This document shows, one piece after another, positions 3,447 to 61,022 of a DNA stretch of 64,000 bases. The notes beneath the pieces were generated by a model. That model did no database searches, was not told the DNA's origin, and worked only from the letters and a program-made list of their open reading frames with translations. Within the stretch, counting starts at the first letter, position 1, and the number at the start of each line of letters is the position of its first letter. The stretch comes from Zoroaster sp. YZ-2022 (taxonomy: Eukaryota; Echinodermata; Asteroidea; Forcipulatida; Zoroasteridae): the NCBI GenBank assembly GCA_029582265.1, contig CM055823.1:21053365-21117364 (forward strand), in the 5' to 3' direction. A program made the position numbers and the translations under genes.

Positions 3447-3770
3447 GAAACCACGGATTCCTCAAAAGTGCCGAGAGCGCTGTTGCTCAGAATCCTGAAG
3501 AAACCTGTGAATAGAAGACGATGAAGGGATCTTCAGTTTTAGATGTGGGATGAAAACCACAGAAAATTAAATAAAACCACGGATTCCTCAAAACTGTTGC
3601 TCAGAATCCTGAAGAAACCTGTGAACAGAAGACGATGAAGGGATCTTCAGTTTTAGATGTGGGATGAAAACCACAGAAAATTAAATAATGAAACCACGGA
3701 TTCCTCAAAAGTGCCGAGAGCGCGGTTGCTCATAACCCTGAAGAAACCTGTGAATAGAACACGGCTGTTC
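3447..3770. repeat. Tandem SINE-body repeat, ~120 bp x2.5
   Basis: GAAACCACGGATTCCTCAAAA...GAAACCTGTGAATAGAAG...GATGAAGGGATCTTCAG recurs at about 3447, 3573 and 3690. The GATGAAGGG...ACCACAGAAAA body also occurs at 7978-8030 next to a tRNA-like head, so it is SINE-derived. Confidence 0.6.
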
Positions 3771-4538
3771 CGCGCGCGCGTATATGCTGTGCGTAAATAA
3801 AGTTCAGTCACACAACACGTAATGCATTATTCATGTTTTGGAATGACGTAACGTAGCCAACATGGCGCTGCCCATGGAGCATAATTTTGACGAACGTGAA
3901 ACACTGAAATCGCGTGGAATATCTTTCTTCAGATATAATAGACATTTTATTTTTTGATATTTTGGGGGAAAACAATAAAAGCTGTAACAGATAATGAGTC
4001 CAAAATCGCCATATGAATGAAATAAAGGGAAAGAAACTAAATTTGTTTGGACTTAATTCACGGGACGGGACAAAACAAACAAGAATGAAAAATACCATGG
4101 AGGTACCTCCATGAATCTACAGAGCGGGAAAATCTGTCGTTGTAAAATATTAAAGTTCTTGAAAAAAAAGGAATTCATAATATTTTAATTCAGTTCTGTT
4201 TCTATATTAAAAAACTATTGTTTCTGTAGGACATTTGGTTATAGTACATGTACATTTTAGCCTCGTTAAAACATGATATAAAATGTGTTGTGAGACTCAA
4301 GCCGGAATTAACGATCAACGTATCAAGGCATCATAGGTATTTGATCAGTGCACAAGTATACCAGCGACCGCTTTGGAAACAAGCGGGCAATATAAACATT
4401 ATAATGAATTAACTGCTGTACATGTACGTAGGCGACAAAAAGTACACTGTTACACAAATATTTCAACACCTTTATCACAATAATAGGTTTTATTGTAAAA
4501 TTATAGTCAAATACATTTAAAAAAAATGACAGTTCACA

Positions 4539-4603
4539 ATGAGTTTTAAGTTTCATCAAGAAGGGTTATCAAAAGTTTGCAGGATTTGTTCTTGTCGTAT
4601 AAA
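4539..4603 (+). pseudogene. RAG1-like: start and first zinc knuckle
   Basis: ATG at 4539 opens MSFKFHQEGLSKVCRICSCR, matching the SLCRICGV region of vertebrate RAG1 in spacing. It then meets TAA, or equally a canonical donor AA/GTAAGT at 4604. The following homologous segment lies directly downstream in another frame, so a frameshift near 4600 is as likely as an intron. Confidence 0.65.
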
Positions 4604-4607
4604 GTAA

Positions 4608-4882
4608 GTCTTCAAGGGACAAGAGCCACAGTCAAAGAAACAAGTGAGTACAGCAAAGAAATATTCAATATCTTCGGAATAAGTACTTGGCAAGACACTG
4701 CAGAACAGCATCCGTCAAAAGTATGTGAAAAATGTGCCAGAAAACTGAGACACTCTAGGGATGGTACAAGAGACTACTCTGAGAAAACTTTGAGAAATAC
4801 TCAACACATTCATCAGGACAACTGTCCTAAACATACAAGGACTGGCAACTGTTTTGTCTGTAATCTTGTTACTCAACAATAA
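4608..4882 (+). pseudogene. RAG1-like: HPxxxCxxC and HTxxxxCxxC zinc ligands
   Basis: Reads FNIFGISTWQDTAEQHPSKV, CEKCARKLR, then KHTRTGNCFVCN, ending in a stop. This parallels the RAG1 order 'V..IHPT.FCHNC' followed by 'HTP.CDIC'. The two Cys pairs and their neighbouring His residues are the expected zinc ligands. The stop at 4880-4882 is followed within 15 bases by the next homologous frame. Confidence 0.7.
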
Positions 4883-4894
4883 AAGGGAGGATCA

Positions 4895-5330
4895 TTGACT
4901 CACTCCAAACAGAAATGTGGTAGGCCTAAACAAGCTGATACTAAACTCTTCATCCTCCCATTTTCATACGATCAAGCTAACATTTTTGAGCATCTGGAGC
5001 AAGGAGCAGCAGAGATTGTAGAGGTTCCGAACACCTTTTATATTATAGGGCACAAGTGGGAGGAGTCTCCATTTACCTGTGGAATTTGCTTGTGCATACT
5101 TGGTACACCCTCAGTGCAGACACTGTGTCATCAGCACAACTACTGTGCAAAATGTTTAACATCATGTTTCAAATATGCTAAATCATCAACCATGTTGTCC
5201 AATCTGTGTACAACCGGCAAATTATAGTGAAATAACACTTAGCCCAAGAATACTTAGAGTACAACTAGAGAATGTTCATGTGGTGTGTACAAAGTGTAAA
5301 AGCATTGGACGGATTTCAAAACTCATACAC
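4895..5330 (+). pseudogene. RAG1-like: RING finger and following zinc segment, frameshifted
   Basis: The first frame reads THSKQKCGRPKQAD, later FTCGICLCILG, LCHQHNYCAKCLTSC. The frame then moves by one near 5180 and continues NHQPCCPICVQPANYSEITL, SPRILRVQLENVHVVCTKCK. Together these give a C3HC4 RING pattern plus the 'L..L...V.C..C' segment that follows the RING in RAG1. In RAG1 this region acts as a ubiquitin ligase and dimerisation module; here it is broken. Confidence 0.7.
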
Positions 5331-5407
5331 ACACAGCTAATAAATGTCCATCATCTGATCCCACACATCATCCTGATGAACATAAATTACACGTAAAGCA
5401 TGACAGC

Positions 5408-5568
5408 TTGAATCCGTCAATGCTGCCAGACTGCTAAAAGAATTAGCAAACAGTCATAAAGTAGGGAACCCTTTACCCCATGATATTGAAGAGGCTACAG
5501 ACAAGTGGGTCTGGTTGAAACTACAAAATGCAAAGACAGGAACAGCAAAAATAAAAACAGCTGGACGG
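5408..5568 (+). pseudogene. RAG1-like element: linker exon
   Basis: Open frame LESVNAARLLKELANSHKVG, NPLPHDIEEATDKWVWLKLQ, NAKTGTAKIKTAGR, then donor CGG/GTAATT in phase 0. No RAG1 match is evident. The phase fits the exon at 5950. A 13-bp microsatellite occupies the intron. Confidence 0.5.
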
Positions 5569-5667
5569 GTAATTAAGTTAAATACATATAAATAAATTTG
5601 AATAAACAGTCTTGCGCCAACTCAACACAATCTTCAACTTGAAGCTTTAAATAATTAAAATAAAAAA

Positions 5668-5793
5668 ATGCAATACAACAAAGGTATACAACAAAGGTAT
5701 ACAACAAAGGTATACAACAAAGGTATACAACAAAGGTATACAACAAAGGTATACAACAAAGGTATACAACAAAGGTATACAACAAAGGTATAC
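5668..5793. repeat. 13-bp microsatellite, ~9 units
   Basis: ACAACAAAGGTAT repeated almost perfectly. It lies in an intron of the RAG1-like element. Confidence 0.9.
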
Positions 5794-5949
5794 AACTGTA
5801 CATTGTACACATTGTATATTTACATTCATATTTACAATCTTTATCATCCAAAATAATCAAACATTCAAATTTCCCATTGAATGCATGTATGGCACATATA
5901 AACCTTTGATAATGAAAATGAATCTACATCGTTAAAAAAAATTAAACAG

Positions 5950-6174
5950 GTTGATTGTCAAATTAAAACAACAAATAATTATGTGATTAAACTGCTCAAA
6001 TTTCATTTCAATGATTTTAACTTGAGCCAAAATGAACTTGATCAGCTGGAGCTCCAATATGCATCTGGACCAGTTACCAGTTCCATTGATAAAGTGCTGT
6101 ACAAGTTCAAAGTTCAGCGGCAGGCCTATCATGGCAAAGCATTTGTGGGCAATCATGTTCACAAATGTTGCAAG
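5950..6174 (+). pseudogene. Transposase-like exon, HGKAFVGNHVHKC motif
   Basis: Acceptor ATTAAACAG and donor TGCAAG/GTAATT, 75 codons, phase 0 both sides. It encodes VDCQIKTTNN, a helical stretch, then KVLYKFKVQRQAYHGKAFVG and NHVHKCCK. The 'YHG..FVGNHVHK' string occurs in uncharacterised transposase-like proteins of cnidarians and molluscs as I recall; it is not part of the RAG1 core. Confidence 0.55.
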
Positions 6175-6274
6175 GTAATTTTTTTTTTTTTTCAAATAAA
6201 AGCCCTGTGGCAAATTATCATGTGACTGATGACACTATTAGGTGAACCATGCAATTTATTTTTTAAATTTCAAC

Positions 6275-6500
6275 CTGAAGTCATTGAAGCTTTAACAGCC
6301 ATCCCAAGACAAAAAGTCAAAGAACATGTGACTGACGACATCCTATTGGTGCACAAGATCGACTACTTCGATTCGCCAGGCTGCATCAACTGGAAGCAAC
6401 TTCAAGGATATTTTCTTGAAGTTTGCTGATGTACACCATGGTATTAACCATGGTATTAACCATTCCAAACCCCTCACAGCAGACGACATCCATCGCATAG
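6275..6500 (+). pseudogene. Transposase-like exon, frameshifted
   Basis: Reads PEVIEALTAIPRQKVKEHVT and DDILLVHKIDYFDSPGCINW, then shifts frame near 6402 to KDIFLKFADVHHGINHGINH and SKPLTADDIHRI. Donor ATAG/GTACAG in phase 1 fits the next exon. GINHGINH comes from a 12-bp tandem duplication. The acceptor is unclear. Confidence 0.5.
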
Positions 6501-6616
6501 GTACAGTACATAGTTTTGTTCAGTGGTATGCATCATCCGTTTTCCCTTTATGATCACAGGGAAATTTGTTGATGTGATGATTTAACCTTTTTGTTTTTCG
6601 TTTATCTCATTTCCAG

Positions 6617-6873
6617 ATGTCTGTATTCAGGAATTTTTGCGAACATACCGCAGAATGTTTCCTGATCAAAATGTGACCCCGAAACTCCACATCCTCGAAG
6701 ATCATGCAGTGCAACAGCTGGCAAAGTTTAAGGTTGGATTTGGGCTCCTGAATCAGCAAGGCGGAGAACTCATCCACACTGAATTCAATCGTACAGGTCG
6801 GGTAGTTCACGGCATGCGTAATGACCTGCAGAAGCTCATGAAATCTGAGCCAATGTCATCAAGCCTTGGATGA
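6617..6873 (+). pseudogene. Transposase-like terminal exon
   Basis: Acceptor CTCATTTCCAG. The two leading bases complete an Asp codon, then VCIQEFLRTYRRMFPDQNVT, PKLHILEDHAVQQLAKFKVG and FGLLNQQGGELIHTEFNR, ending at TGA 6871-6873. 'PK.HILEDH' and 'G..GEQGGE.IH..FN' are shared by a widespread group of transposase-like proteins. Intact over its full length. Confidence 0.6.
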
Positions 6874-7110
6874 AACATTAAAGTTAATTTTAGATTATTT
6901 AATTACAAGGCACCTATTCATGGAATCATAATATTAAGAGTTGGACAGAACTGAACAAAATTGGGGGGGGGGGGGCGTGTAAGGAGAATCATAATTAGGA
7001 CTGGGAATTCTGATCAAGTACATGTAGGCCTAGTTGTCTTGTTACAAATAACATACTCATGATAAAACTGCAATTGTTAACAAATACAAATAAGATGAAT
7101 TTCACAGCCA

Positions 7111-7194
7111 TTAACCCTAACTCCCTAGACAACAGTTGGAGGATTTTGAAGGATTTTTATTGTTCACTAACAATGCTTAGGGAGTTAGGGTTAA
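7111..7194. mobile_element. Short piggyBac-like MITE (TTAA)
   Basis: TTAA-CCCTAACTCCCTAG at the left and AGGGAGTTAGGG-TTAA at the right, 84 bp. TTAA target duplications and CCC-type ends are piggyBac hallmarks. Related copies lie at 26430-26841 and 28424-28790. Confidence 0.65.
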
Positions 7195-7710
7195 TAAACT
7201 GAGATGTCACCACATCTTTGAATAGGTCAACACCCAAGTGATCTCATAGCCAAGTTATCAGTGTTAAAATATGACTTTTTATGAGGAAAACTACTGATAC
7301 GAAAAAAAAATTATTGGACATTGAAAGAATAAGTTTCTAAAAAAGAGACTTGCAGCTAGCAGAATGCTGCTTATTAACAACAAATGAAACAGCACCATGG
7401 AATTAAAACAATAATAATTCAGTAAATAAATAATGGAAGGAAATGAACTTAACGAACGTAAACATGCTCATGCGTACTACATGAGTAAACCTGTACACGT
7501 AACAAGTTACATGCACATAACGTTGTATGTATACATGCATGTACCGTACATGACCATACATACACGTGTATAAAGACAGCTTACGCGTGCAAAAATAAAG
7601 TTTAGAAATGGTAAATAAATTCATTGATTTATATGCTTTAAAAAAATGTCCTACACTTACCTTGTAGTTTCTAGTGAAGTTTGTCAAAGTTGCAGATGAT
7701 TACTGAAGTA

Positions 7711-7884
7711 TAGACCTTATGCGTTGACGTCATCACGCCGCCATCTTAGAGGTAAAACGATGATGAAACAATGGAAAACGCACATCTATACACGCGCGGC
7801 ACACAGATTGGGCCAATGAGCAACCTTCTTTTGACCTCTAGCCGAGGGCGCCCTACTCAAATGACGTCATGTGCATAAGGTCTA
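7711..7884. mobile_element. MITE with TAGACCTTATGC ends
   Basis: TAGACCTTATGCGTTGACGTCAT at the left mirrors ATGACGTCATGTGCATAAGGTCTA at the right. An internal GAGGGCGCCCT segment recurs at 13720-13760 in a second, diverged copy beginning TAGACCTTAATATGC at 13686. Confidence 0.6.
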
Positions 7885-7949
7885 TTGGACCCTTGGACGT
7901 CTAGGAATAAACAATGACGTAATGCAAACTTGGCAACAGAGGGCGCACT

Positions 7950-8157
7950 TTTTTTGCGGGCGGAACAGCCGTGTGAAGACGATGAAGGGATGTTCAGTTT
8001 TAGATGTGGGATGAAAACCACAGAAAAGTATTCTAGGGAAAAACCCACGTAATGAGGTAAGGACTGAAAACCCAATCCACATGTCACCTCAGGTCTGCGT
8101 GGGATTTGAACCCAGGTCCACAGACATGAAAGTCAAGGAATGTACCACTAAGCCAAC
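7950..8157 (-). repeat. tRNA-derived SINE
   Basis: The minus strand starts GGTTGGCTTAGTGGTACATT (box A-like) with GGTTCAAATCCCAC (box B) 45 bases on, and runs into the GATGAAGGGATGTTCAG body shared with 3447-3770. Confidence 0.6.
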
Positions 8158-8213: not shown

Positions 8214-8344
8214 TGTCGGGCCAAGTGAAGGTCCCGTCTGGATTGCAAATGGGTAACGTGATGGCAGAATCACTCAGTACATTAATGAACTGTAGGCAGT
8301 CTGAATCTCCATTCTTTGGGCAGAAGCCGACTGACACATACTGA
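8214..8344 (-). CDS. Secreted-protein gene, exon 9: end of cysteine domain A
   Basis: Acceptor CCCGTTTTAG and donor GACA/GTAAGT, 131 bases. It encodes SQYVSVGFCPKNGDSDCLQF, then INVLSDSAITLPICNPDG and TFTWPD, contributing three cysteines. It joins exon 8 in phase 2 and exon 10 in phase 1. The first ~85 bases of this exon together with its acceptor are repeated in tandem just upstream (8345-8528 and 9573-9765), but only this copy keeps a donor site. Confidence 0.8.
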
Positions 8345-8528
8345 CTAAAACGGGATGGCAGAATCACTCAGTACATTAATGAACTGTAGGCAGTCTAAAT
8401 CTCCATTCTTTGGGCAGAAGCCGACTGACACATACTGACTAAAACGTGATGGCAGAATCACTCAGTACATTAATGAACTGTAGGCAGTCTGAATCTCCAT
8501 TCTTTGGGCAGAAGCCGACTGACACATA
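8345..8528. repeat. 94-bp tandem copies of the exon 9 acceptor half
   Basis: Two further copies of exon 9's first ~85 bases with TTTTAG acceptor. GATGGCAGAATCACTCAG occurs at 8260, 8354 and 8448, exactly 94 apart. None has a donor. Reading through a copy in frame ends at the TAG of the next acceptor. Confidence 0.85.
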
Positions 8529-9567: not shown

Positions 9568-9572
9568 GACAT

Positions 9573-9765
9573 ACTGACTAAAACGTGATGGCAGAATCAC
9601 TCAGTACATTAATGAACTGTAGGCAGTCTGAATCTCCATTCTTTGGGCAGAAGCCGACTGACACATACTGACTAAAACGGGATGGCAGAATCACTCTACA
9701 GTACATTAATGAACTGTAGGCAGTCTGAATCTCCATTCTTTGGGCAGAAGCCGACTGACACATAC
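9573..9765. repeat. More 94-bp copies of the exon 9 acceptor half
   Basis: Two copies (GATGGCAGAATCACTC at 9587 and 9681) continue the array at 8345-8528 beyond the inserted transposon. The second carries a 4-base insertion. Confidence 0.85.
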
Positions 9766-9830
9766 TGACTAATAGTTGGCTTCTGGTCTTCTCAATGCCA
9801 TACCTGAAATGGAAGTCCACAGAATTGGTT

Positions 9831-13668: not shown

Positions 13669-13881
13669 TATTATTATTATTATTATAGACCTTAATATGC
13701 ATTTATTATAATGTCACAAACTGAAGGGCGCCCTCGCTCAGAGGCAAAAGAAGGTTACTCATTGGTTGATGTAAGTGCGCTCCACGTATGCGTGCATTTA
13801 AGTGCATCTACCTGCAGTGCGCATACATGAACCAATGAACCCTTCTTTTACCAATTGTACAAAACAAACGGAGTCTCTTAC

Positions 13882-47165: not shown

Positions 47166-50100
47166 GTGCAGCTCAAGTCAACTAAATTCCAATAGTTTTT
47201 ATTCCAAAGTGAAATAAACAGCATGTAAATTCCCAAACCTGTGTTTAACTGAGAATAAATGATTCTGTCAAAATACATTCATTGTGACAAAATCACTTAT
47301 TGGAGTCATAATTATGACTTAAGCTGCAGAGTAAAATTGTTCACTATTTTCCTTTAACGCTTCCGTGTGTATCTCCGTAATGCAACTATCAAACCGTCGT
47401 TGTTCTATAGGCAAACTAAGTTATTATTATGACTTACCGGGTACGCTTAGTCATAATTATGAGATATTAAGTCATAATTATGACTTATTTAATTCATAAT
47501 TATGACTTTGCTTAAGTCGTAAGTATGACTTACGCTAAGTCATAATAATGACTTAGCTTAAGTCATAATTTATGACTTATTTAAGCCATAATTATGACTT
47601 AGTTTAAGTCATAATTATGACTTACTTAAGTCATAATTATGACTTAGCGTAACTCATAATAATAACTTAGTTTGCCTATAGAACAACGACAGTTTGACAG
47701 TTGTATTACGGAGATACACACGGAATCGTTAAAGAGAAATAGTGAAAAAAAAATCTCAGCTGAAGTCATAATTATGATTTAAATAAGTCATAATTATGAC
47801 TCAAGCTAAGTCATAATTATGACTCAAGCTAAGTCATAATTATGACTTAGCTTAAGTCATTATGACTTATTTAAATCATAATTATGACTTCAGCTGAGAA
47901 TTTTTTTATTTCCCTTCAACTCATCCGTGTGTATCTCCGTAATGCATGTGTCAAACCGTCGTTGTTCTATAGTCAAACTAAGTCATTATGACTTAACATA
48001 TATGACATAATTTTGAGATATTAAGTCATAATTATGACTTATTTAAGACATAATTATGACTTAGCTTAAGTCATAATTATGACTTAAGCTGAGAATTTTT
48101 TCACTATTTCCCTTTAACGATTCCGTGATGCCACTGTCAAACCGTCGTTGTTCTTTAGGCAAACTAAGTTATTATTACTAAGTTATTACTATGAATTATT
48201 TAATTCATAATTATGACTTAGGCTAAGTCATAATTATGACTTATTGAAGTCATAATTATGCCTTAGCTTAAGTCATAATAATGAATTATTAAAGTCATAA
48301 TTATGACTTATTTAAGTCATAATTATGACTTAGCTTGAAGTCATAATTATGACTTAGCTTGAATCATAATTACGACTTAACTTAAGTCATAATTATGACT
48401 TATTTAAATCATAATTATGACTTCAGCTGAGAATTTTTTTTATTTCCCTTCAACTCATCCGTGTGTATCTCCGTAATGCATGTGTCAAACCGTCGTTGTT
48501 CTATAGTCAAACTAAGTCATAATTATGACTTATTTAAGTCATAATTATGACTTAACATATATGACATAATTATGAGTCATAATTATGACTTATTTAAAAG
48601 ACATAATTATGACATAAGCTGAGATTTTTTTTCACTATTTCCCTTTAACGATTCCGTGTGTATCTCCGTAATGCAACTGTCAAACCGTCGTTGTTCTTTA
48701 GGCAAACTAAGTTATTATTACTAAGTTATTACTATGACTTATTTAATTCAGAATTATGACTTAGCGTAAGTCTGATTTTTTCACTCTTTCCATTTAACGA
48801 TTCCGTGTGTATCTCCGTAATGCAACTGTCAAACCGTCGTTGTTCAATAGGCAAACTAAGTTATTGACTTAAGCTAAGTCATAATAATGACTTATTGAAG
48901 TCATAATTATGACTTATTGAAGTCATAATTATGACTTAAGCTACGTCATAATTATGACTTCAGCTGAGAATTTTTTATTTCCCTTTAACGCTTCCGTGTG
49001 TTTCTCCGCAATGCATGTGTCAAATTATTATGACTTACGCTAAGCTAAAATTTAAATTATTACTTATTGAATTCATAATTATGAATTAGCTTAAGTCATA
49101 ATTATGACTTATTGAAGTCATAATTATGACTTATTGAAGTCATAATTATGACTTATTGAAGTCATAATTATGACTTATTTAAGTCATAATTACGACTTAA
49201 CTTAAGTCATAATTATGACTTATTTAAGTCATAATTATGACTTAAGCTGATAATATTTTTCACTATTTCCCTTTAACGATTCCGTGTGTATCTCCGTAAT
49301 GCAACTGTCAAACCGTCGTTGTTCTACAGGCAAACATATATTATTATGACTTACGCTAAGTCATAATCATGAAATATAAAGTCATAATTATGACTGAGCT
49401 CAAGTCATAATTATGACTTCAGCTGAGAATTGTTTTATTTCCCTTCAACTCATCCGTGTGTATCTCCGTAATGCATGTGTCAAACCGTCGTTGTTCTATA
49501 GTCAAACTAAGTCATAATTATGACTTAACATATATGACATAATTATGAGATATTAAGTCATAATTATGACTTATTTAAGACATAATTATTACTTAAGCTG
49601 AATTTTTTTTCCACTATTTCCCTTTAACGATTCCGTGTGTATCTCCGTAATGCAACTGTCAAACCGTCGTTGTTCTTTAGGCAAACTAAGTTATTATTAC
49701 TAAGTTATTACTATGACTTATTTAATTCATAATTATGACTTAGCTTCAGTCATAATTATGACTTAGCTTCAGTCATAATTATGACTTAGCTTCAGTCATA
49801 ATTATGACTTACTAAAGTCATAATTATGAATTCAGCTGAGAATTTTTTTTTTCCATTAACTCTTCCGTGTGTATCTCCGCAATTATCACTTAGCTTAAGT
49901 CATAATTATGACTTCAGATTATAATTTTGTTTACTATCTCCCTTTAACGATTCCGTGTGTATCTCCGTAATGCAACTGTCAAACCGTCGTTGTTCTACAG
50001 GCAAACTAAGTTATTATTATGACTCCCTTTTCGACAAAATAATGGACGAATCCTACCATTGCTACTGTTGAGAAAACGTTCGATCCGCTTTTCGGGAAGC

Positions 50101-50928
50101 AGGAAAGCAGAAAAACGGATTTGTCCAAAACGTTCGTTCTAACATTCGTGCAGCTCAAGTCAACTAAATTCCAATAGTTTTTATTCCAAAGTGAAATAAA
50201 CAGCATGTAAATTCCCAAACCTGTGTTTAACTGAGAATAAATGATTCTGTCAAAATACATTCATTGTGACAAAATCACTTATTGGAGTCATAATTATGAC
50301 TTAAGCTGCAGAGTAAAATTGTTCACTATTTTCCTTTAACGCTTCCGTGTGTATCTCCGTAATGCAACTATCAAACCGTCGTTGTTCTATAGGCAAACTA
50401 AGTTATTATTATGACTTACCGGGTACGCTTAGTCATAATTATGAGATATTAAGTCATAATTGACTTATTTAATTCATAATTATGACTTTGCTTAAGTCGT
50501 AAGTATGACTTACGCTAAGTCATAATTATGACTTAGCTTGAGTCATAATAATGACTTATTGAAGTCATAATTATGACTTATTTAAGTCATAATTATGACT
50601 TAAGCTACGTCATAATTATGACTTCAGCTGAGAATTTTTTATTTTCCTTCAACGCATCCGTGTGTATCTCCGTAATGCATGTGTCAAACCGTCGTTGTTC
50701 TATAGGCAAACTAAGTTATTGTTATGACTTATGCTAAGCCATGATGATGAGATATTATGTTAAAATTATGGCTTAGTTCAAGTCATAATTATGACTTAGC
50801 TTAAGTCATAAAAATTACTTATTGAAGTCATAATTATGACTTAGCTGAAGTCATAAAAATGACTTATTGAAGTCATAATTATGACTTAGTTTCAGTCATA
50901 ATTATGACTTATTGAAGTCATGATTATT
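47160..50928. repeat. Palindromic AT-rich satellite, main array
   Basis: Built of AAGTCATAATTATGACTT (a perfect 18-bp palindrome) joined by TA, TTGA, TTTA or GCT linkers. It is punctuated by a block TTTCCCTTTAACGATTCCGTGTGTATCTCCGTAATGC...CAAACCGTCGTTGTTCTATAGGCAAACTAAG. The block usually points one way but is inverted at 47660-47755. Segments 47166-47500 and 50150-50500 are near-identical, showing a higher-order duplication. Confidence 0.9.
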
Positions 50929-51025
50929 TTATTTATTTTATTTATTTTATTTTAGTCATCTTTAATGAGGGTAAACTCCGATCAGTGCACAGCACTGCTT
51001 TCCATGGAGGCCCTCAGTACAAATA
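50929..51025. repeat. LINE or SINE tail inserted in the satellite
   Basis: TTTATTTTATTTATTTTATTTTAGTCATCTTTAATGAGGGTAAACTCC...GGAGGCCCTCAGTAC: pentanucleotide tail plus a conserved short 3' stem. Confidence 0.5.
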
Positions 51026-51398
51026 TAATTATAACTTCAGCAAGTCATAATTATGACTTAGCTTAAGTCATAATTATGAGATATTAAGTCAAAATTATGA
51101 CTTATTTAAGTCATAATTATGACTTTGCTTAATTATAACTTAGCGTAAGTCATAATTATGACTTATTGAAGTCATAATTATGACTTAGCTTAAGTCATAA
51201 TTATGACTTATTTAAGCCATAATTATGACTTAACATATAATAATAATAATAATAAAGATTTATAGCGCGCACATATCCACCCTGCTGGGCGCTCAAGGCG
51301 CGGAAACAAAGAAAAAACATGAATACAAACAATATACAATGATAGCATAGGGGAATTTTTTTAAATTATGTACCGAGATACATGTACCTACAATGCAA

Positions 51399-52515
51399 TT
51401 ACAAATATACATCATCTTTGAAGAGTTGTGACATAAGATGAGTTTTAAGCATCGACTTAAATCTGGTTATACTATGACAAGATTTGAGTTTAGTTGGAAG
51501 ATGATTCCAGAGTCTCGGAGCTGCGACAGAAAACGACCTATCACCCCAGTTCCGTTTTGAAGTTGGTTCCTTTAGGAGTGACATGTTGCTGGAGCGCAAA
51601 TTGCGTGACGGAGTGTAGACTTTAAGCAGTTCAGAAATATAAATTGGAGCAATGTTATTGAAAGATTTGTGAACAATTAGCATAAGTTTAAAAACAATTC
51701 TCTGTGAAACAGGAAGCCAGTGCAGTTCTTTCAAGATTGGCGTGATATGGCATGACTTTCTGGACAAAGTCACAACACGAGCTGCTGTGTTTTGTATGTG
51801 CTGAAGACGAGATATTTGATTCTGCGGGAGACCGTAAAGGAGAGCATTCCCGTTATCGAGCCTTGATGTGACAAACGCATGTATAATTTGTTCAGCAGCA
51901 CTTTTATTCAAGTATTTCCTAATTCGGCTTATATTTCTGATATGAAATGATGATATGCGAACAATGTTGGAGATATGTGGTTTTAAAGTCATTGTCGAGT
52001 CAAATATAACACCCAAATTACGTGCATGTAATGAGGGGTTATCTGCGAGTCACCAATTGTAATAAATGGAAGAGAAACTTTAGACAATTGCTGACGTGAT
52101 CCAAATAGAACAAATTCTGTTTTTCATCGTTCAATTTCAGGAAATTTTGTCTCATCCAACTTCGAATCTCTTGAATACATTTCTCCAGTGTTTTAATGCA
52201 GGAATCAGCAGGTTCTTGAGAAGATTTAAAAGTAATGTAAAGCTGCGTGTCATCAGCGTAAACATGGTAATTTAAATTATACTTCAAAATGATATCACGA
52301 ACTGGAAAGGTATAAACAGTAAACCACTGTGGGCCGAGCACAGAGCCTTGGGGTACAGAATAGTCAAGAATAACAGGCTCGGAGATAGCGTTACCAATAC
52401 AAACATGCTGAGGCCTATTTAAAAGGTAGGACTTACACCAATCCAGGGGCTGTGTCATGTATTCCAAGATGATATTGAAGGCGGGAGAGAAGGATTTTAT
52501 GATCGACCGTGTCAA
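51399..52515 (-). pseudogene. LINE reverse transcriptase catalytic part and C-terminus
   Basis: 52039-52515 carries VPQGSVLGPQWF and the catalytic YHVYADDTQLYI. 51399-52016 carries the C-terminal region NISRIRKYLNKSAAEQIIHA, FVTSRLDNGNALLYGLP and RSFSVAAPRLWNHLP. A frameshift separates the two near 52030. Confidence 0.85.
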
Positions 52516-54464
52516 AAGCGGCGCTTAAGTCTAACAAAACTAATGCAGTGATTTTCCCCTCATCCATGGCAGATAAAATGTCATTGTTGACGCGAAGAAG
52601 AGCAGTTTCCGTTCCATGAAATGGTTTGTAGGCTGACTGAAATGTGTCCGACAGGTTATTAGCACGAACATGGTCTGAGATCCGTGATGAAACAACTCGC
52701 TCGATTGTTTTTCCAAGGTACTTTAAATTCGCTACTGGTCGGTAATTTTTGAAAACTTCCTTGTCCAAATTGGGTTTCTTTAGGAGTGGTTTAACATGAG
52801 CAACCTTCTGGCTATTAGGGAAACAACCGGAAGAAAGAGATCTGTTTACAATAATTGTGATATACTTAGCAAACACATCAATATTTTGTTTTATTAGCGA
52901 AGTTGGCACTGGATCAAGTTCACATGATTTTGATGGCGATTTCATGATGATTTTCTTAATCTCAGTAACACTAGTAGGCTCAAACATGGACAGTCTACAT
53001 TGTGGATCCTTGCGTGTTGGTGTTTGTGATAGAATGGGAAAAGAACGACGGATATTCTCAATTTTTGTGACAAAAAAGTTTGAAAAAGCATTTGCGAGGT
53101 CCTGGTCGGAGTGTGTAGATGGAAGCACTGGAGCTTTGGGTTTATGAAGCAGCTTTTCAACAATGTTAAAGAGTTTTTTCTGATCACCAGAGCTATCTTT
53201 CACAAGAGATGAGTAGTGAGTTATTTTTGCCTGGTTAATCATGTTCTTCACAATATCACGTTGGTTACAGTATTCTTGCCGACGTACTCCAAGTTTCCCA
53301 TTGTCACGCCATCTTCGCTCAAGTTGACGGCGGATTTTCCTTGCAGCACGGATATCATCATTGAACCAGGGGGATTCAGATTGTAGTTTAACAGTTCGAG
53401 TTTTTTGCGGAGCATGATCATCCAAGATGTTACGGATAGTAGATTCAAATAGACTGACACAAGAATCCAGCTCACCATCTTCAAGGTTTACATTTTCCAG
53501 TTGAGATTCAACATCATGACATAAATCTTTAATATTTACTTTTTTCCAGTGGCGAGTAGCTACAGAAATGGTAGGTATGGGAGGTTTTTTAAGGTTCAAA
53601 TTTACCATGATTGCATAATGATCAGATAATCCAGGATGAATAGTTATATTCGTGATAAGAGGTGAAGTATTTTCACGCGTTATCATGAGGTCAAGACAGT
53701 GACCATACCGATGAGTGGGTGCTGTGATGTGCTGTATAAGTCCATGAGCAGAGAGCAGATCTTTAAACTGATTTGCATAATTGTTTGAAATTATGTCCAT
53801 ATGAATGTTAAAATCGCCGGTTAAAATAATGTCAGATGGGTGTAAGAGATAATCGACAATTAATTTTTCAAATTCCTGCAGAAAACTGGAGAAGTTTACA
53901 TGTTTACCATCAACATCCCTTTCTGGTCGATAAATATTAACAAGGCGAACAGATCTAGAGTTGCACGTTACCTCAGCATGCAGAGATTCAAATGTTAGGT
54001 AGTCAATGTTAACACTTTTCATGCTGACAGATAAACTGGACCTAAAGAGTAGTGCAACCCCTCCACCGGTCTTTATTGGTCTGGGGATATGATGGAGAAG
54101 AGTAGCCAGCAGGAGTACACTCACGGGGTAGCAAATCATCATCAGGTTTAAACCATGTCTCGGTTATGGCAACAAGATCCAAATTGTTTTGAAGTACAAA
54201 GTCAACAAATTCATCCGATTTGTTACATATGGATTGAGTATTCAAGACACAGAGCTGAAGTTTAGACTCATCGTGAACATTTGGAGTTGAAGTTATGCCA
54301 ATGTCGCTTGTTGATGTGGTTGAGTTCACCGCTGGGGGTTGGTAAGGCTGGGGGTTGGTAAGGCTGGAGTGCAAGTTGTGTAAGTCTGTCCATTCTACGG
54401 CGACCAGCTTTTTTACCTCTATGTGTGCGGCGGTATGTTTGGGGTTGATTAGCAAGTATTCCAA
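52433..54464 (-). pseudogene. LINE endonuclease and start of reverse transcriptase
   Basis: Two overlapping frames (54042-54464 and 52433-54142). Endonuclease signatures: LNTQSICNKSDEF, AITETWF, VNIYRP, IILTGDFNIHMD and GLSDHYAI. RT begins FPNSQKVAHVKPLLKKPN, NYRPVANL, FQSAYKPFHGTETALL and ALVLLDLSAAFDTVDH. The frame shifts near 54080 and again near 52450. Confidence 0.85.
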
Positions 54465-54849
54465 GACAGTTCAATTGACTCAATGATGAATAAGATAAAG
54501 CTACATCAGTACATGGAGCATTGCGAAGATTGAGTAGTTCATTGCGGCTGTAGGAAATTTTATGGAGCTGAGTGGCGTTTGTGGGTGTGTTGATCAGTGT
54601 TTCAGGTCCAGGGTTTGGGTTTATGTCACCAGAAATTAAGAGTTCCAGGTGAAAGGAGGCAGATGAATTATCATAGTATGATATAGGACGTCTCAAGAAT
54701 TTAAGATGGCGGATTTTAGTTGAACAATCTGTAGGTTGCATCTTGTAGCCATCTACTGATGAGTTATTGAGACACAATGGTCTGGATAGCAGGAGTAGAA
54801 TAAACAGGATGTAGATCTCCATTGTCTGATCACAAAGTTGTTGATCCAA
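54268..54849 (-). pseudogene. LINE N-terminal region with 2A-like motif
   Basis: Begins MDQQLCDQTM, then a hydrophobic segment EIYILFILLLLSRPLCL (residues 11-27) like a signal sequence. LLISGDINPNPGP (residues 70-82) resembles 2A 'skipping' peptides (consensus D[V/I]ExNPGP) known from non-LTR elements of sea urchin and others. The Glu is Asn here. A basic RGKKAGRRRMDR follows. The frame is lost near 54350, where GGGTTGGTAAGGCT is duplicated. Confidence 0.65.
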
Positions 54850-55165
54850 ACAAAAGGCTTGTGGTCAAGCTACAGGTTATAATCTCTAGCTACAGGTTAT
54901 AATCTAAATCAGAGTTGACTGCACAAATTAAATGAAGATCCAAAATGTGTATACACTCAACAGTAAAAAATGTCTGCACAGACAGACAAAAAAACAACAG
55001 TTTTTCACTTATTATAAGAAAACAAATACTCACATAAAACGTCCAGTAGATTCCAGGTGTAATAAGAAATCCACTAGTATAAAAATGAAGACAAACTTGT
55101 AGCTACAAAACACTTACTTAGCACAAAAAACTGGAGAGCTGTTATGAGTGGCTGCTTGTAAGGCG

Positions 55166-57195
55166 CTCAGTCATAAGTCATAAGTCATAATTATGAGATA
55201 TTAAGTCATAATTATGACTTCAGCTGAGAATTTCTTTTCACTATTTCTCTTTAACGATTCCGTGTGTATCTCCGTAATACAACTGTCAAACTGTCGTTGT
55301 TCTATAGGCAAACTAAGTTATTATTATGAGTTACGCTAAGTCATAATTATGACTAAGCTTAAGTCATAATGACTTAGCTTAAGTCATAATTATGACTTAT
55401 TTAAATCATAATTATGACTTCAGCTGAGAATTTTTTATTTCCCTTCAACGCATCCGTGTGTATCTCCGTAATGCATGTGTCAAACCGTCGTTGTTCTATA
55501 GTCAAACTAAGTCATTATGACTTAACATATATGACATAATTTTGAGATATTAAGTCATAATTATGACTTATTTAAGACATAATTATGACTTAGCTTAAGT
55601 CATAATTATGACTTAAGCTGAGAATTTTTTCACTATTTCTCTTTAACGATTCCGTGATGCAACTGTCAAACCGTCGTTGTTCTTTAGGCAAACTAAGTTA
55701 TTATTACTAAGTTATTACTATGAATTATTTAATTCATAATTATGACTTAGCCTAAGTCATAATTATGACTTATTTAAGTCATAATTATGACTTAGCTTGA
55801 AGTCATAATTATGACTTAGCTTGAGTCATAATTATGACTTACCTTAATTCATAATTATGACTTATTTAAATCATAATTATGACTTCAGCTGAGAATTTTT
55901 TTATTTCCCTTCAACTCATCTGTGTGTATCTCCGTAATGCATGTGTCAAACCGTCGTTGTTCTATAGTCAAACTAAGTCATAATTATGACTTATTTAAGT
56001 CATAATTATGACTTAACATATATGACATAATTATGAGATATTAAGTCATAATTATGACTTATTTAAAAGACATAATTATGACTTAAGCTGAGAATTTTTT
56101 TCACTATTTCCCTTTAACGATTCCGTGTGTATCTCCGTAATGCAACTGTCAAACCGTCGTTGTTCTTTAGGCAAACTAAGTTATTATTACTAAGTTATTA
56201 CTATGACTTATTTAATTCAGAATTATGACTTAGCGTAAGTCATAATTATGACTTAGCTGAAGTCATAATTATGACTTATTGAAGTCATAATTATGACTTA
56301 TTGAAGTCATAATTATGACTTATTTAAGTGACTTAGCTTAAGTCATAATTATGAGATATTAACTCATAATTATGACTCAGCTTAAGTCATAATTATGACT
56401 TATTTAAGTCATAATTATGACTTAATCTGAAAATTATTTGGGAAATATTTCCCTTTAACGATTCCGTGTGTATCTCCGTAATGCAACTGTCAAACCGTCG
56501 TTGTTCTACAGGCAAACAGATATTATTATGACTTACGCTAAGTCATAATTACGAAATATAAAGTCATAATTATGACTTCAGCTGAGAATTTTTATTTCCC
56601 TTCAACTCATCCGTGTGTATCTCCGTAATGCATGTGTCAAACCGTCGTTGTTCTATAGTCAAACTAAGTCATAATTATGACTTAACATATATGACATAAT
56701 TATGAGATATTAAGTCATAATTATGACTTATTTAAGACATAATTATGACTTAAGTCATAATTATGACTTATTTAAGACATAATTATGACTTAAGCTGATT
56801 TTTTTTTCACTATTTCCCTTTAACGATTCCGTGTGTATCTCCGTAATGCAACTGTCAAACCGTCGTTGTTCTTTAGGCAAACTAAGTTATGACTTAGCTT
56901 AAGTCATAATAATGACTTATCGAAGTCATAATTATGACTTAGCTTCAGTCATAATTATGACTTAGCTTCAGTCATAATTATGACTTACTAAAGTCATAAT
57001 TATGAATTCAGCTGAGAATTTTTTATTTTCCATTAACTCTTCCGTGTGTATCTCCGCAATTATCACTTAGCTTAAGTCATAATTATGACTTCAGATTATA
57101 ATTTTTTTTTACTATCTCCCTTTAACGATTCCGTGTGTATCTCCGTAATGCAACTGTCAAACCGTCGTTGTTATACAGGCAAACTAAGTTATTAT
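55166..57195. repeat. Palindromic AT-rich satellite, second array
   Basis: Same palindrome and 75-bp block as 47.2-50.9 kb; many paragraphs correspond one-to-one with those at 47.7-49.9 kb. The part at 56960-57190 matches 49795-50025 almost exactly. Confidence 0.9.
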
Positions 57196-57553: not shown

Positions 57554-57655
57554 GACAGAGCAGAAAGAAGTTTGATGTTATTAAACTCCAACGGCATGAC
57601 ATAAGATCAAAGTTTACAGTTGAAATAAGAAACAGATTTGAAGTGCTAGTAGATC

Positions 57656-59227
57656 ATGCTGATGACAGTAGTGTTGAGCATAAAATGGCAGAATTTTGAG
57701 AATGCTTACAGAGAGACGGCAAAGAATACCCTTGGGTACAAGAAAAAAGGTCAGAAACCCTGGATTACTAAAGAGTCATGGGAGTTAGTAGAGGAAAGAA
57801 GGAAACTGAAGAGCAACATTGAACAGACAAAGTCAACCAGAATAAAGCAAAACCTTAAAAGTGAATATCAAAGAAAGGACAAAGAAGTTAAGAAAAGTAT
57901 GAGAAGAGATAAGAGGCAGTGGGTAGATGACCTGACATCTCAAGCAGAAAGAGCAGCAGGAAATGGCAGAATGAAAGAGTTATATGAGATAACAAGAGCT
58001 CTAACCAACGAGAAAGGCAAAGCAAGTAATGTTGTAAAAGATATAGATGGGAACCTTCTAACAGAAGAGTCACAAAGAAAGAGAAGATGGAAAGAGCATT
58101 TTGAAGATATACTCAACAGACCAATGCCAATTAACCCAATAACAGATGACGAATTGAGTGTTGATGAAACTATCAATGACATTAGTATTGAATACATTTC
58201 AAAACCAGAAATTACAACAGCCATAAAGAAGCTCCGAAATGGTAAAGCAGCTGGTAAGGATGAAATTACAGCAGAGCTGTTAAAGACAGACATACATACG
58301 ACAGTGGAATGGTTACATGAACTATTCATGACAATTTGGGACCAAGAAGAAGTACCAAAAATGCGGAAACAAGGTCTTATCGTAAAGCTGCCCAAGAAAG
58401 GTGACTTAACAGAATGCGGCAATTGGCGGGGCATAACACTTTTATCTGTTCCATGTAAAGTTTTCAGCAGAGTGCTGATAGACCGAATCAGAGATGGTAT
58501 CAACAACAAATTAAGGAATGAACAGGCTGGATTTAGACAAGGAAGAAGTACAGTGGAAGAAATTTTTATCCTAAGAAATATAATAGAGCAAGTTGTTGAG
58601 TGGCAGTCAACGTTATATATTACATTTGTTGACTTTGAAAAAGCCTTCGACTCGGTACATAGAGAGAGTCTATGGAAAATCATGGCTTGTTATGGTATTC
58701 CAACAAAGATTCTTAGATTGATCAAGTCCCTATATGAAGATAATGAATGTGCTGTGTTAGATGAAGGTGAACAATCAGAATGGTTTAAAGTAAAGACGGG
58801 AGTTAAACAAGGAGACGTAATGTCAGGCTTCATCTTCCTGATTGTGGTGGACTGGATAATGAAGAAAGCAGTCGATGGGAATAGAACGGGTTTAAGATGG
58901 AAATTTACTTCAAAGCTGGAAGACCTCGATTTTGCGGATGACATCGCTCTCCTGTCATCAAGCATTCACCACATGCAACATAAAGTAACTAGGGTGCAGG
59001 ACGTCGCAGCCAGAACCGGTCTGAAAATAAACACTAAGAAAACGGAGGTGCTAAGGATCAACAACAATTCCAACAACAGAATCACACTAGGAGCTCAACA
59101 ATTAACTGATGTTGATAGATTTACATACCTAGGGGCCAGCGTCAGCAATAAAGGTGGTGGAGCAGAAGACATACAATATAGGATTTGCAAAGCAAGAGCT
59201 GCATTTATAAAACTAAAACAAGTCTAA
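57656..59227 (+). pseudogene. RTE-like LINE: reverse transcriptase
   Basis: A 523-codon frame with GNWRGITLLSVPCKVFSRVL, NEQAGFRQGRSTVEEIFILR, FVDFEKAFDSVHRESLW, KTGVKQGDVMSGF and the catalytic DLDFADDIALLSSS. The intact RT core and WRGITLLS are typical of RTE-type elements. It ends early by frameshift at about 59223. Confidence 0.85.
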
Positions 59228-59663
59228 ACTTAGACTATACAAAACCTTAGTTGTACCTGTTCTGATATACGGCTGTGAGACATGGAAAATCAATGAAAGT
59301 GACAACAATAAGCTTGACGTTTTCCAATACAAGTGTCTCAGATGGATACTGAAAATCAGATGGCCATATGTCATCTCTAACACAGACTTGCTCTATGAAA
59401 CAGAAATGAAACAAATAAGTGAGGTGGTGAAGTTCAGAAGGTGGAGTTGGATTGGGCATGTGCTCAGAATGGATGACAGTAGTCACTGCATGACAGCGCT
59501 TTCTTGGGCACCCGAAGGAAGGAGGAGGGTTGGACGACCCAAAACAACCTGGAGACGCACAGTGGAGAAAGAAAGGAGTGAACTGGGTTGGAGAACATGG
59601 AATGAAGCAAAGCAGGTAGCCAGAGACAGAAAATGCTGGAGGGAGATTCTTGCAGCCTCATAG
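59223..59663 (+). pseudogene. RTE-like LINE: C-terminal domain
   Basis: Continues LYKTLVVPVLIYGCETWKIN, FQYKCLRWILKIRWP, then RRWSWIGHVLRMDDSSHCMT and GRPKTTWRRTVEKERSELGW, the conserved tail of this LINE group, ending at TAG 59661-59663. Confidence 0.8.
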
Positions 59664-59726
59664 AACAGCGGGTCCAGAGAGGCTAGGTGAAGGTGAGGTG
59701 ACGCTAAGTCATAATTATGGCGGACG

Positions 59727-60540
59727 ATGTCTAAGCTTGAAGACCTAGATTTTGCAGACGATATCGCACTCTTATCTTCCAGTCACTCCCAAATGCAAAG
59801 GAAAACAAACAGTATGTCTAGGATCGCAAGCAGAATTGGACTTAAAGTCAACAGAAAGAAGACGAAGATCATGAGAATGAATAAGAAGAGGGATGCTGTT
59901 AAGCTAGAGGAAAATGAAATAGATGATGTGGAGGAATTTACATACTTGGGTGCAATTGTAAGCAAAGAAGGAGGTGGAGGGAGAGACATGAATTGCAGAA
60001 TAAACAAGGCAAGAGTTGCTTTTACAAAATTGAACAAGATATGGAGATCCAAACAGTATGGAAGAAAAACCAAAATCAAGCTTTATAAAACATTGGTGAG
60101 ACCTGTGCTTCTCTATGGTTGCGAAACATGGAAAATGAACAAAAGCGACGAAAATAAACTAGACTCCTTTCAATACCAGTGCTTGAAAAAAGCATTACAA
60201 ATATTCTGGCCAAATATCATTTCGATAGATGAACTCAACGACCACACCCAAACCACAAGGATAAGCTATGAAGTAAAAAGAACAAGATGGAATTCGATTA
60301 GCCATGTTTTAAGGAAACCAAATGATCATCATTGTATGACTGCCCTGACATGGCAACTAGAGGGAAAAAGGAAGGTTGGTAGACCGAAAACAACGTGGAG
60401 GAGGACAGTGGAAAAAGAAAGAAAGCAAGGCGGGTGGAGGACTTGGAACGAGGCAAGGGGAAGAGCGCAGGACAGAGAAAAGTGGAAACAGAGCGTGGCG
60501 GCCATATGTGCCATGAGGCACGAAGAGGATAGTTGAGTTG
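59727..60540 (+). mobile_element. RTE-like LINE, copy 2, shorter truncation, uninterrupted frame
   Basis: Separated from copy 1 by about 25 bases containing one satellite unit. An open frame of 269 codons starts at the RT catalytic segment (KLEDLDFADDIALLSSSHSQ) and runs to HEEDS and TGA. It is from the same family but clearly a different source copy (NRKKTKIMRMNKKRD against NTKKTEVLRINNNSN). Confidence 0.85.
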
Positions 60541-61022
60541 AGTATGTCATAATTATGACTTATTTGATTCATAATTATGACTTATTTAATTCAAAATAAT
60601 GACTTATTTAATTCATAATTATTACTTATTTAATTCATAATTATGAATTAGCTTAAGTCATAATTATGACTTATTGAAGTCATAATTACGACTTAACTTA
60701 AGTCATAATTATTGAAGTCATAGTTATGACTTATTGAAGTCATAATTATGACTTAGTTAAGTAATAATTATGACTTATTTAAGTCATAATTATAACTTAG
60801 CTGAAGTCATAATTATAACTTAGCTGAAGTCATAATTATGACTTATTTAAGTCATAATTATGACTTAAGCTGAGCATTTTTTTCACTATTTCCCTTTAAC
60901 GATTCCGTGTGTATCTCCGTAATGCAACTGTCAAACCGTCGTTGTTCTATAGGCAAACTAAGTTATTATTATGACTTACGCTAAGTCATAATTATGAAAT
61001 ATAAAGTCATAATTATGATTGA
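60541..61022. repeat. Palindromic AT-rich satellite, third array
   Basis: Same unit; includes one full 75-bp block at 60885-60962. The array ends at 61022. Confidence 0.9.

Follow-up and report, generated by a model that had tools for sequence, protein, structure and literature searches.

An inactivated Chapaev-superfamily transposon copy in a starfish genome combines a RAG1 N-terminal-like head with remains of a transposase of predicted RAG1-core fold

The question raised by a locus on contig CM055823.1 of the starfish Zoroaster sp. YZ-2022 is whether coding remains that resemble the N-terminal region of RAG1 belong to a mobile element made of that region only, or whether the exons that follow them are part of the same gene. 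The remains lie at positions 4539-6873 of a 64,000-nucleotide window (the whole stretch of DNA analysed, to which all positions refer) and were described in an initial annotation as a dead transposon of the N-only type. We conclude, with a probability of roughly 0.94, that the stretch represents a cut-and-paste DNA transposon of the Chapaev superfamily, in a copy that has been inactivated and has lost internal sequence, and that its nearest elements are those of starfish.

The element itself is larger than the stretch first delimited. It is bounded by CACGGCTGTTCCGC and GCGGAACAGCCGTG, its ends read CACGGCTG...CAGCCGTG, and the two ends were found as one inverted-repeat match, which also counts one flanking pair. 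The insertion lies within a local repeat, uninterrupted copies of which adjoin at 3480-3574 and 3594-3688; when the flanks were joined after removal of 0 to 6 bp, only the removal of 4 bp gave gap-free matches (95.5% across 110 bp, 94.3% across 88 bp), as expected of an empty site. The terminal inverted repeats (TIRs), the target-site duplication (TSD), and the gap-free empty site therefore define the unit as a 4,214-bp transposon copy, which bears out the view that it is a transposon and replaces its earlier limits with 3760-7973. The window contains just two exact occurrences of the outer 14-mer of the TIRs, oppositely oriented, whereas 100 shuffles gave 0.00 on average. In this repeat-rich window, there are 18,375 pairs of exact inverted 14-mers 1 to 10 kb apart (14 with a GC content of at least 60%), and 1.19 occurrences of the TIR pattern with up to three mismatches are expected by chance; an exact inverted 14-mer by itself is weak evidence, and support for the element ends comes from the target duplication and the empty site. 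Near the right end, a nested inverted-repeat element, ATAGACCTTATGC...GCATAAGGTCTAT, lies within the transposon at 7709-7886, and part of it recurs at 13725-13765 (88% over 42 bp).

A decayed host gene domesticated from a Chapaev element would also have a spliced structure and be present as a single copy, and the 64-kb window does contain just one copy of the element, plus the empty-site repeats. The element ends, the target duplication, and the empty site in a local repeat make this origin highly improbable, however, as do relatives that fall into many-member clusters (20 members in the cluster of P0001, some of them possibly isoforms).

The coding remains were interpreted through these relatives. 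A read-through query returned 17 proteins at an E value of ≤10 among 3,317 candidates, the best match being P0001 (989 amino acids, Asterias amurensis), which carries both halves; a second protein search found P0018 (1,025 amino acids, A. amurensis). A third search scored only the 7,999 candidates that shared most words, and P0001 and P0018 were not among its returns, which makes the count of relatives a minimum. P0018 is collinear with the window along 4533-6878: residues 1-52, 24-224, 220-263, 294-347, 806-878, 885-939, 924-998, and 1007-1023 match in this order by tblastn, adjacent matches overlapping at frame shifts and two extending into introns. The three N-half pieces at 4601-5568 (residues 24-224, 220-263, and 294-347) are 70, 70, and 78% identical and residues 924-998 are 81% identical; the remaining pieces show 52 to 57% identity, with residues 1-52 at 4533-4676 matching at 52% overall across a frameshift. 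The zinc-binding motifs first noticed here (CRIC, HPSKVCEKC, HTRTGNCFVC, a RING with CGIC...CPICV, and a following C..C segment) are all present at 4539-5330 in the order described, and the ordered matches to P0018 indicate that they did not arise by chance. Six full-length relatives share 128 invariant residues, 63 of which fall in the mapped pieces; 57 of these 63 were scored as identical, and one of the six exceptions (C220) is an alignment artefact, the cysteine being present in the other frame. The splice borders are mostly consistent as well, with GT after 6500 and AG before 6617 in addition to the exon 1 donor at 5568.

The copy is dead, as had been proposed. Its N-half reading is interrupted by frameshifts and one TAA (4880-4882), and P0018 residues 348-805, which include both catalytic aspartates and the C(2)C motif, have no tblastn match anywhere in the window. 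It is incapable of making a working transposase. The stretch from which the central part of the transposase gene has been lost contains a perfect 13-bp tandem array of 9.5 copies (5673-5796).

Both halves are joined in each of at least nine related proteins (P0001, P0010, P0018, P0020, P0022, P0023, P0024, P0025, and P0026). This finding is the opposite of halves that never occur together, the outcome that would have told against a single gene, and it upholds the suggestion that the two halves form one. It also bears on the idea that the locus is an N-RAG-TP-like element, that is, a transposon of the RAG1 N-terminal region only, beside which the second set of exons would be foreign. Databases do hold N-only gene models (P0002 and P0005), and the Aplysia N-RAG-TP, which likewise places RAG1-N-like sequence in a mobile element, is described in the available text of PMC8355894 as N-terminal only; we compared it by description. 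Here, however, the C-terminal transposase exons lie within the same TIR/TSD unit as the N half. Moreover, P0002 and P0005 end shortly past the exon 1 donor, running on as GRV, as expected if exon 1 was read into its intron, so that such N-only models can be first exons extended in this way. We therefore regard an N-only element as very unlikely. As to the suggested new host lineage, the closest proteins come from starfish and are existing database entries; one of them, from Patiria miniata, is called V(D)J recombination-activating protein 1-like.

The family to which the copy belongs agrees with published accounts of Chapaev elements. Members of this clade are described as mostly having CA..TG ends, duplications of 2 to 5 bp, and C(2)C and H(3-4)H motifs between the second catalytic D and the E, the motifs being given for RAG1 too (PMC12730594, in part); in Chapaev, the Chapa domain is stated to correspond to the RAG1 N part, with a RING in two subgroups (PMC4411706, in part). 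The present element has CACGG...CCGTG termini, inverted over 17 of 18 positions, and a 4-bp duplication (AGAA/TGAA). Its closest relative, P0018, contains a DUF1280-type DDE transposase (E value, 2e-22), with C626/C629 and H948/H953 invariant in all six aligned proteins; the window copy keeps the ends, the head, and, from the C(2)C/H(3-4)H/E set, the H(4)H and E portion alone. The order of a RAG1-N-like zinc region followed by a RING is that of the published subgroup as described. These shared traits make the element a dead and otherwise ordinary representative of a kind already in the literature. Like the Chapaev proteins with Chapa and RING domains in the accessible part of PMC4411706, it combines a Chapa zinc region, a RING, and a Chapaev-type transposase in one protein; that group, compared by description, was drawn from lancelet and sea anemone genomes, whereas the window copy is starfish-type, dead, and deleted in its middle. 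P0018 and P0001 share its architecture and collinearity, P0018 being 70 to 81% identical in four retained pieces, but they are full-length gene models, whereas the window copy is frameshifted and lacks P0018 residues 348-805. The Chapaev target duplication is 4 bp long; a literature search on Chapaev elements with 4-bp duplications and terminal inverted repeats returned no match. A literature search on the Chapa domain found nothing beyond PMC4411706.

The homology of the N half to RAG1 is significant only through the relatives, because neither PF12560 nor RAG1 was matched when pieces of the window were searched by themselves against Pfam and the Protein Data Bank (PDB). Those pieces returned weak Pfam rows only (zf-AD, E value of 0.018; DUF2826, 0.025; RING models, 0.08 to 0.5; and a few others); in the PDB, the RING piece matched seven RING or TRAF proteins (E values of 0.06 to 0.46) and the first piece matched nothing. 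Profiles of the relatives, in contrast, matched mouse RAG1 at residues 101-392 (n = 5; E value, 2.2e-15), 101-381 (n = 6; 3.9e-26), and 101-380 (16 sequences; 1.5e-31). With all three profiles, full-length RAG1 ranked first of all PDB sequences, TRAF6 and other RING proteins being weaker, and the pre-RING part matched a 137-residue RAG1 fragment (21wb) with E values of 1.2e-7, 6.1e-14, and 1.2e-15. PF12560 (RAG1_imp_bd) was found at an E value of ≤0.01 in 6 of the 16 relatives, P0018 and P0001 not among them; in another Pfam search at an E value of ≤1, only P0010 of seven relatives carried it. The C-terminal exons make up the catalytic-E/zinc-histidine end of a transposase whose fold is predicted, from a structure model whose low-confidence N half was not used, to be that of the RAG1 core. 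The initial statement that these exons are not the RAG1 transposase core thus holds for detectable sequence and fails for the predicted fold.

Several observations weigh against our interpretation. The window copy is without the DUF1280 segment, and with that segment lost, its family membership rests on the flanking exons and the element ends. The two TSD copies differ at one of four bases. Homology to the RAG1 core is not significant by sequence: the RAG1 core was unreported at E values up to 1000, and the core stretches gave i-E values of 21 and 930 against RAG1 in a profile search.

A decayed RAG1L/RAG2L transposon (TransibSU/ProtoRAG) would offer another source of RAG1-N homology joined to a RAG1-core fold. 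However, the core pieces are up to 81% identical to DUF1280 proteins, with the RAG1 core undetected by sequence; the TSD is 4 bp long rather than the 5 bp of TransibSU (PMC4411706); and a RING is present here, whereas echinoderm RAG1L is described without one in the available text of PMC7204232. We give this origin almost no credence. Vertebrate RAG1 likewise differs from the present element, which has CACGG ends and a 4-bp duplication and whose core has no significant sequence similarity to that of RAG1.

Two views of the origin of the RAG1 N terminus have been put forward, one invoking a common Chapaev/Transib ancestor with later losses (PMC4411706) and the other a recombination of Transib with a separate N-RAG element (PMC8355894), both as given in the available texts. 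As the family described here carries both halves, these views predict different, countable outcomes. We compared the halves of mouse RAG1 with those of starfish Chapaevs and of a sponge-like group consisting of P0020, P0022, P0023, and P0024, plus P0025 for the N half (P0022 and P0024 have Sycon-type identifiers). The distance tests excluded P0010 and P0026, each incomplete in one half, and all partial models other than P0002 and P0005, used in the N set, and P0019 and P0021, used in the core set. Starfish and sponge-like proteins are 20 to 24% identical in the N half and 29 to 35% in the core; RAG1 is 22 to 25% identical to these Chapaevs in the N half and 14% identical to the Chapaev core in a structural alignment. 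A profile of five sponge-like N halves scored the RAG1 N half at 84 bits and the starfish N halves at 75 to 88 bits, whereas RAG1 came last with profiles of four starfish N halves (32 versus 45 to 71 bits) and of two (24 versus 35 to 57 bits). With the sponge-like profile, RAG1 fell below the starfish proteins in the pre-RING part (45 versus 54 to 66 bits) and above them in the RING part (38 versus 22 to 29 bits); with the starfish profile, it was lowest in the pre-RING part (26 versus 28 to 49 bits) and second of six in the RING part (19 versus 8 to 21 bits). Core profiles of the sponge-like and starfish proteins found each other at 301 to 431 bits and yielded no RAG1 hit. The five shuffled RAG1 halves went undetected with every profile.

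Distances were summarized as the ratio of the mean RAG1-to-Chapaev to the mean starfish-to-sponge-like maximum-likelihood distance, using P0018 and P0001 against P0020, P0022, P0023, and P0024. The ratio was 0.90 for the N half (bootstrap range, 0.86 to 1.04; 247 columns) and 1.99 for the core (1.86 to 2.34; 470 columns). Under three models, with and without columns of mostly cysteine or histidine, all six runs gave 0.89 to 0.98 for the N half and 1.82 to 1.99 for the core. Simulation with a true N-half ratio of 1.99 yielded estimates of 1.53 to 2.59 in 20 of 20 replicates, and a true ratio of 0.90 yielded 0.77 to 1.04 in 20 of 20; therefore, saturation under the same model does not account for the observed 0.90. 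These values come from one RAG1 sequence and a few deeply diverged Chapaevs, 2 to 5 substitutions per site apart and unrooted; the core alignment is hard to trust at such identity, and the simulation was run without alignment error. Faster evolution of the RAG core, for example after RAG2 joined, would mimic the signal of a capture. The proposal that the RAG1 N half has a history separate from the core is thus strengthened by these sequence comparisons but not proven. A tentative proposal, to which we would give somewhat less than an even chance, is that the N half (zinc head plus RING) was captured from a transposon of the Chapaev type long after the RAG/Transib core had diverged from that of Chapaev, and was not inherited with the core and later lost in Transib.

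Table 1. Positions of the transposon copy and its coding remains in the window
Feature	Position	Strand	Evidence
Entire Chapaev-type element, a DNA transposon copy of 4,214 bp	3760..7973	+	Left and right TIRs, TSD, empty site without gaps
Left TSD, AGAA	3756..3759	.	4-bp removal at flank join
Right TSD, TGAA (3/4 bases as in AGAA)	7974..7977	.	Flank-join comparison
Left TIR, CACGGCTGTTCCGCGCGC	3760..3777	+	17/18 match to right TIR; outer 14-mer exact
Right TIR	7956..7973	-	17/18 match to left TIR
Exon 1, whole N half, ending GR/GTAATT at splice donor	4539..5568	+	P0018 tblastn, splice borders; P0002/P0005 continue as GRV here
RAG1-N/Chapa zinc region, frameshift near 4604, right border approximate	4539..4873	+	Motifs, P0018 tblastn; RAG1 pre-RING homology via relatives
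RING and following zinc segment, frameshift near 5180-5195, borders approximate	5060..5327	+	P0018 tblastn, profile searches
Stretch between halves, with 13-bp tandem array	5569..6045	+	P0018 tblastn, repeat scan
C-terminal-part exon, LELQYASGPV...HVHKCCK, AG/.../GT borders	6046..6174	+	P0018 tblastn, splice borders
Next exon, VIEALTA...DIHRI, frameshift near 6350-6370, left border uncertain	6281..6500	+	P0018 tblastn, splice borders
Last exon, with the H(4)H zinc histidines (PKLHILEDH) and the region of the catalytic E (QGGELIH)	6617..6873	+	81% identity to P0018 924-998; alignment to RAG1 E962 region

Elsewhere in the window, related 94- to 97-bp tandem repeats lie just outside the element (8255-8528 and 9569-9772). 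A non-LTR retrotransposon occupies the minus strand (54268-54864, with 52433-54163 and 51399-52049), with endonuclease and RVT_1 domains in 52436-54163 and an upstream open reading frame containing LELLISGDINPNPGP, a sequence similar to 2A ribosome-skipping motifs. Arrays of a palindromic unit (AAGTCATAATTATGACTTA; 47445-49971, 50427-51232, 55181-57015, and 60546-60867) flank or separate two retrotransposon stretches (51399-54864, minus strand; 57653-60536, plus strand) and may be a preferred target for insertion. Neither Rfam, at gathering scores, nor a tRNA scan gave a match.

Beyond what the analysis shows (termini, target duplication, empty site, collinearity with relatives, N-half homology to RAG1, predicted core fold, and damage), a complete element would code for a single spliced protein, roughly 1,000 residues long, in the order of a RAG1-N-like zinc head (Chapa), a RING and second zinc segment, and a DDE transposase of RAG1-core fold (DUF1280). 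We postulate that this transposase would bind its own TIRs, cut by a D, D, E triad (D537, D607, and E974 in P0018), and insert through 4-bp staggered cuts, and that the head and RING may act in dimerization or regulation, as in RAG1.

In conclusion, the whole N half is a single first exon of a Chapaev gene, which suggests an explanation for invertebrate "N-RAG1" annotations. Since the N half and the core lie at different distances from RAG1, the question of their origin can be put directly to the test as further RAG1L and Chapaev sequences are added. Elements of this type are relevant to the source of the parts of RAG1, their head and predicted catalytic body both being RAG1-like, and if the capture proposal is true, they would represent extant relatives of the transposon that donated the RAG1 N half.
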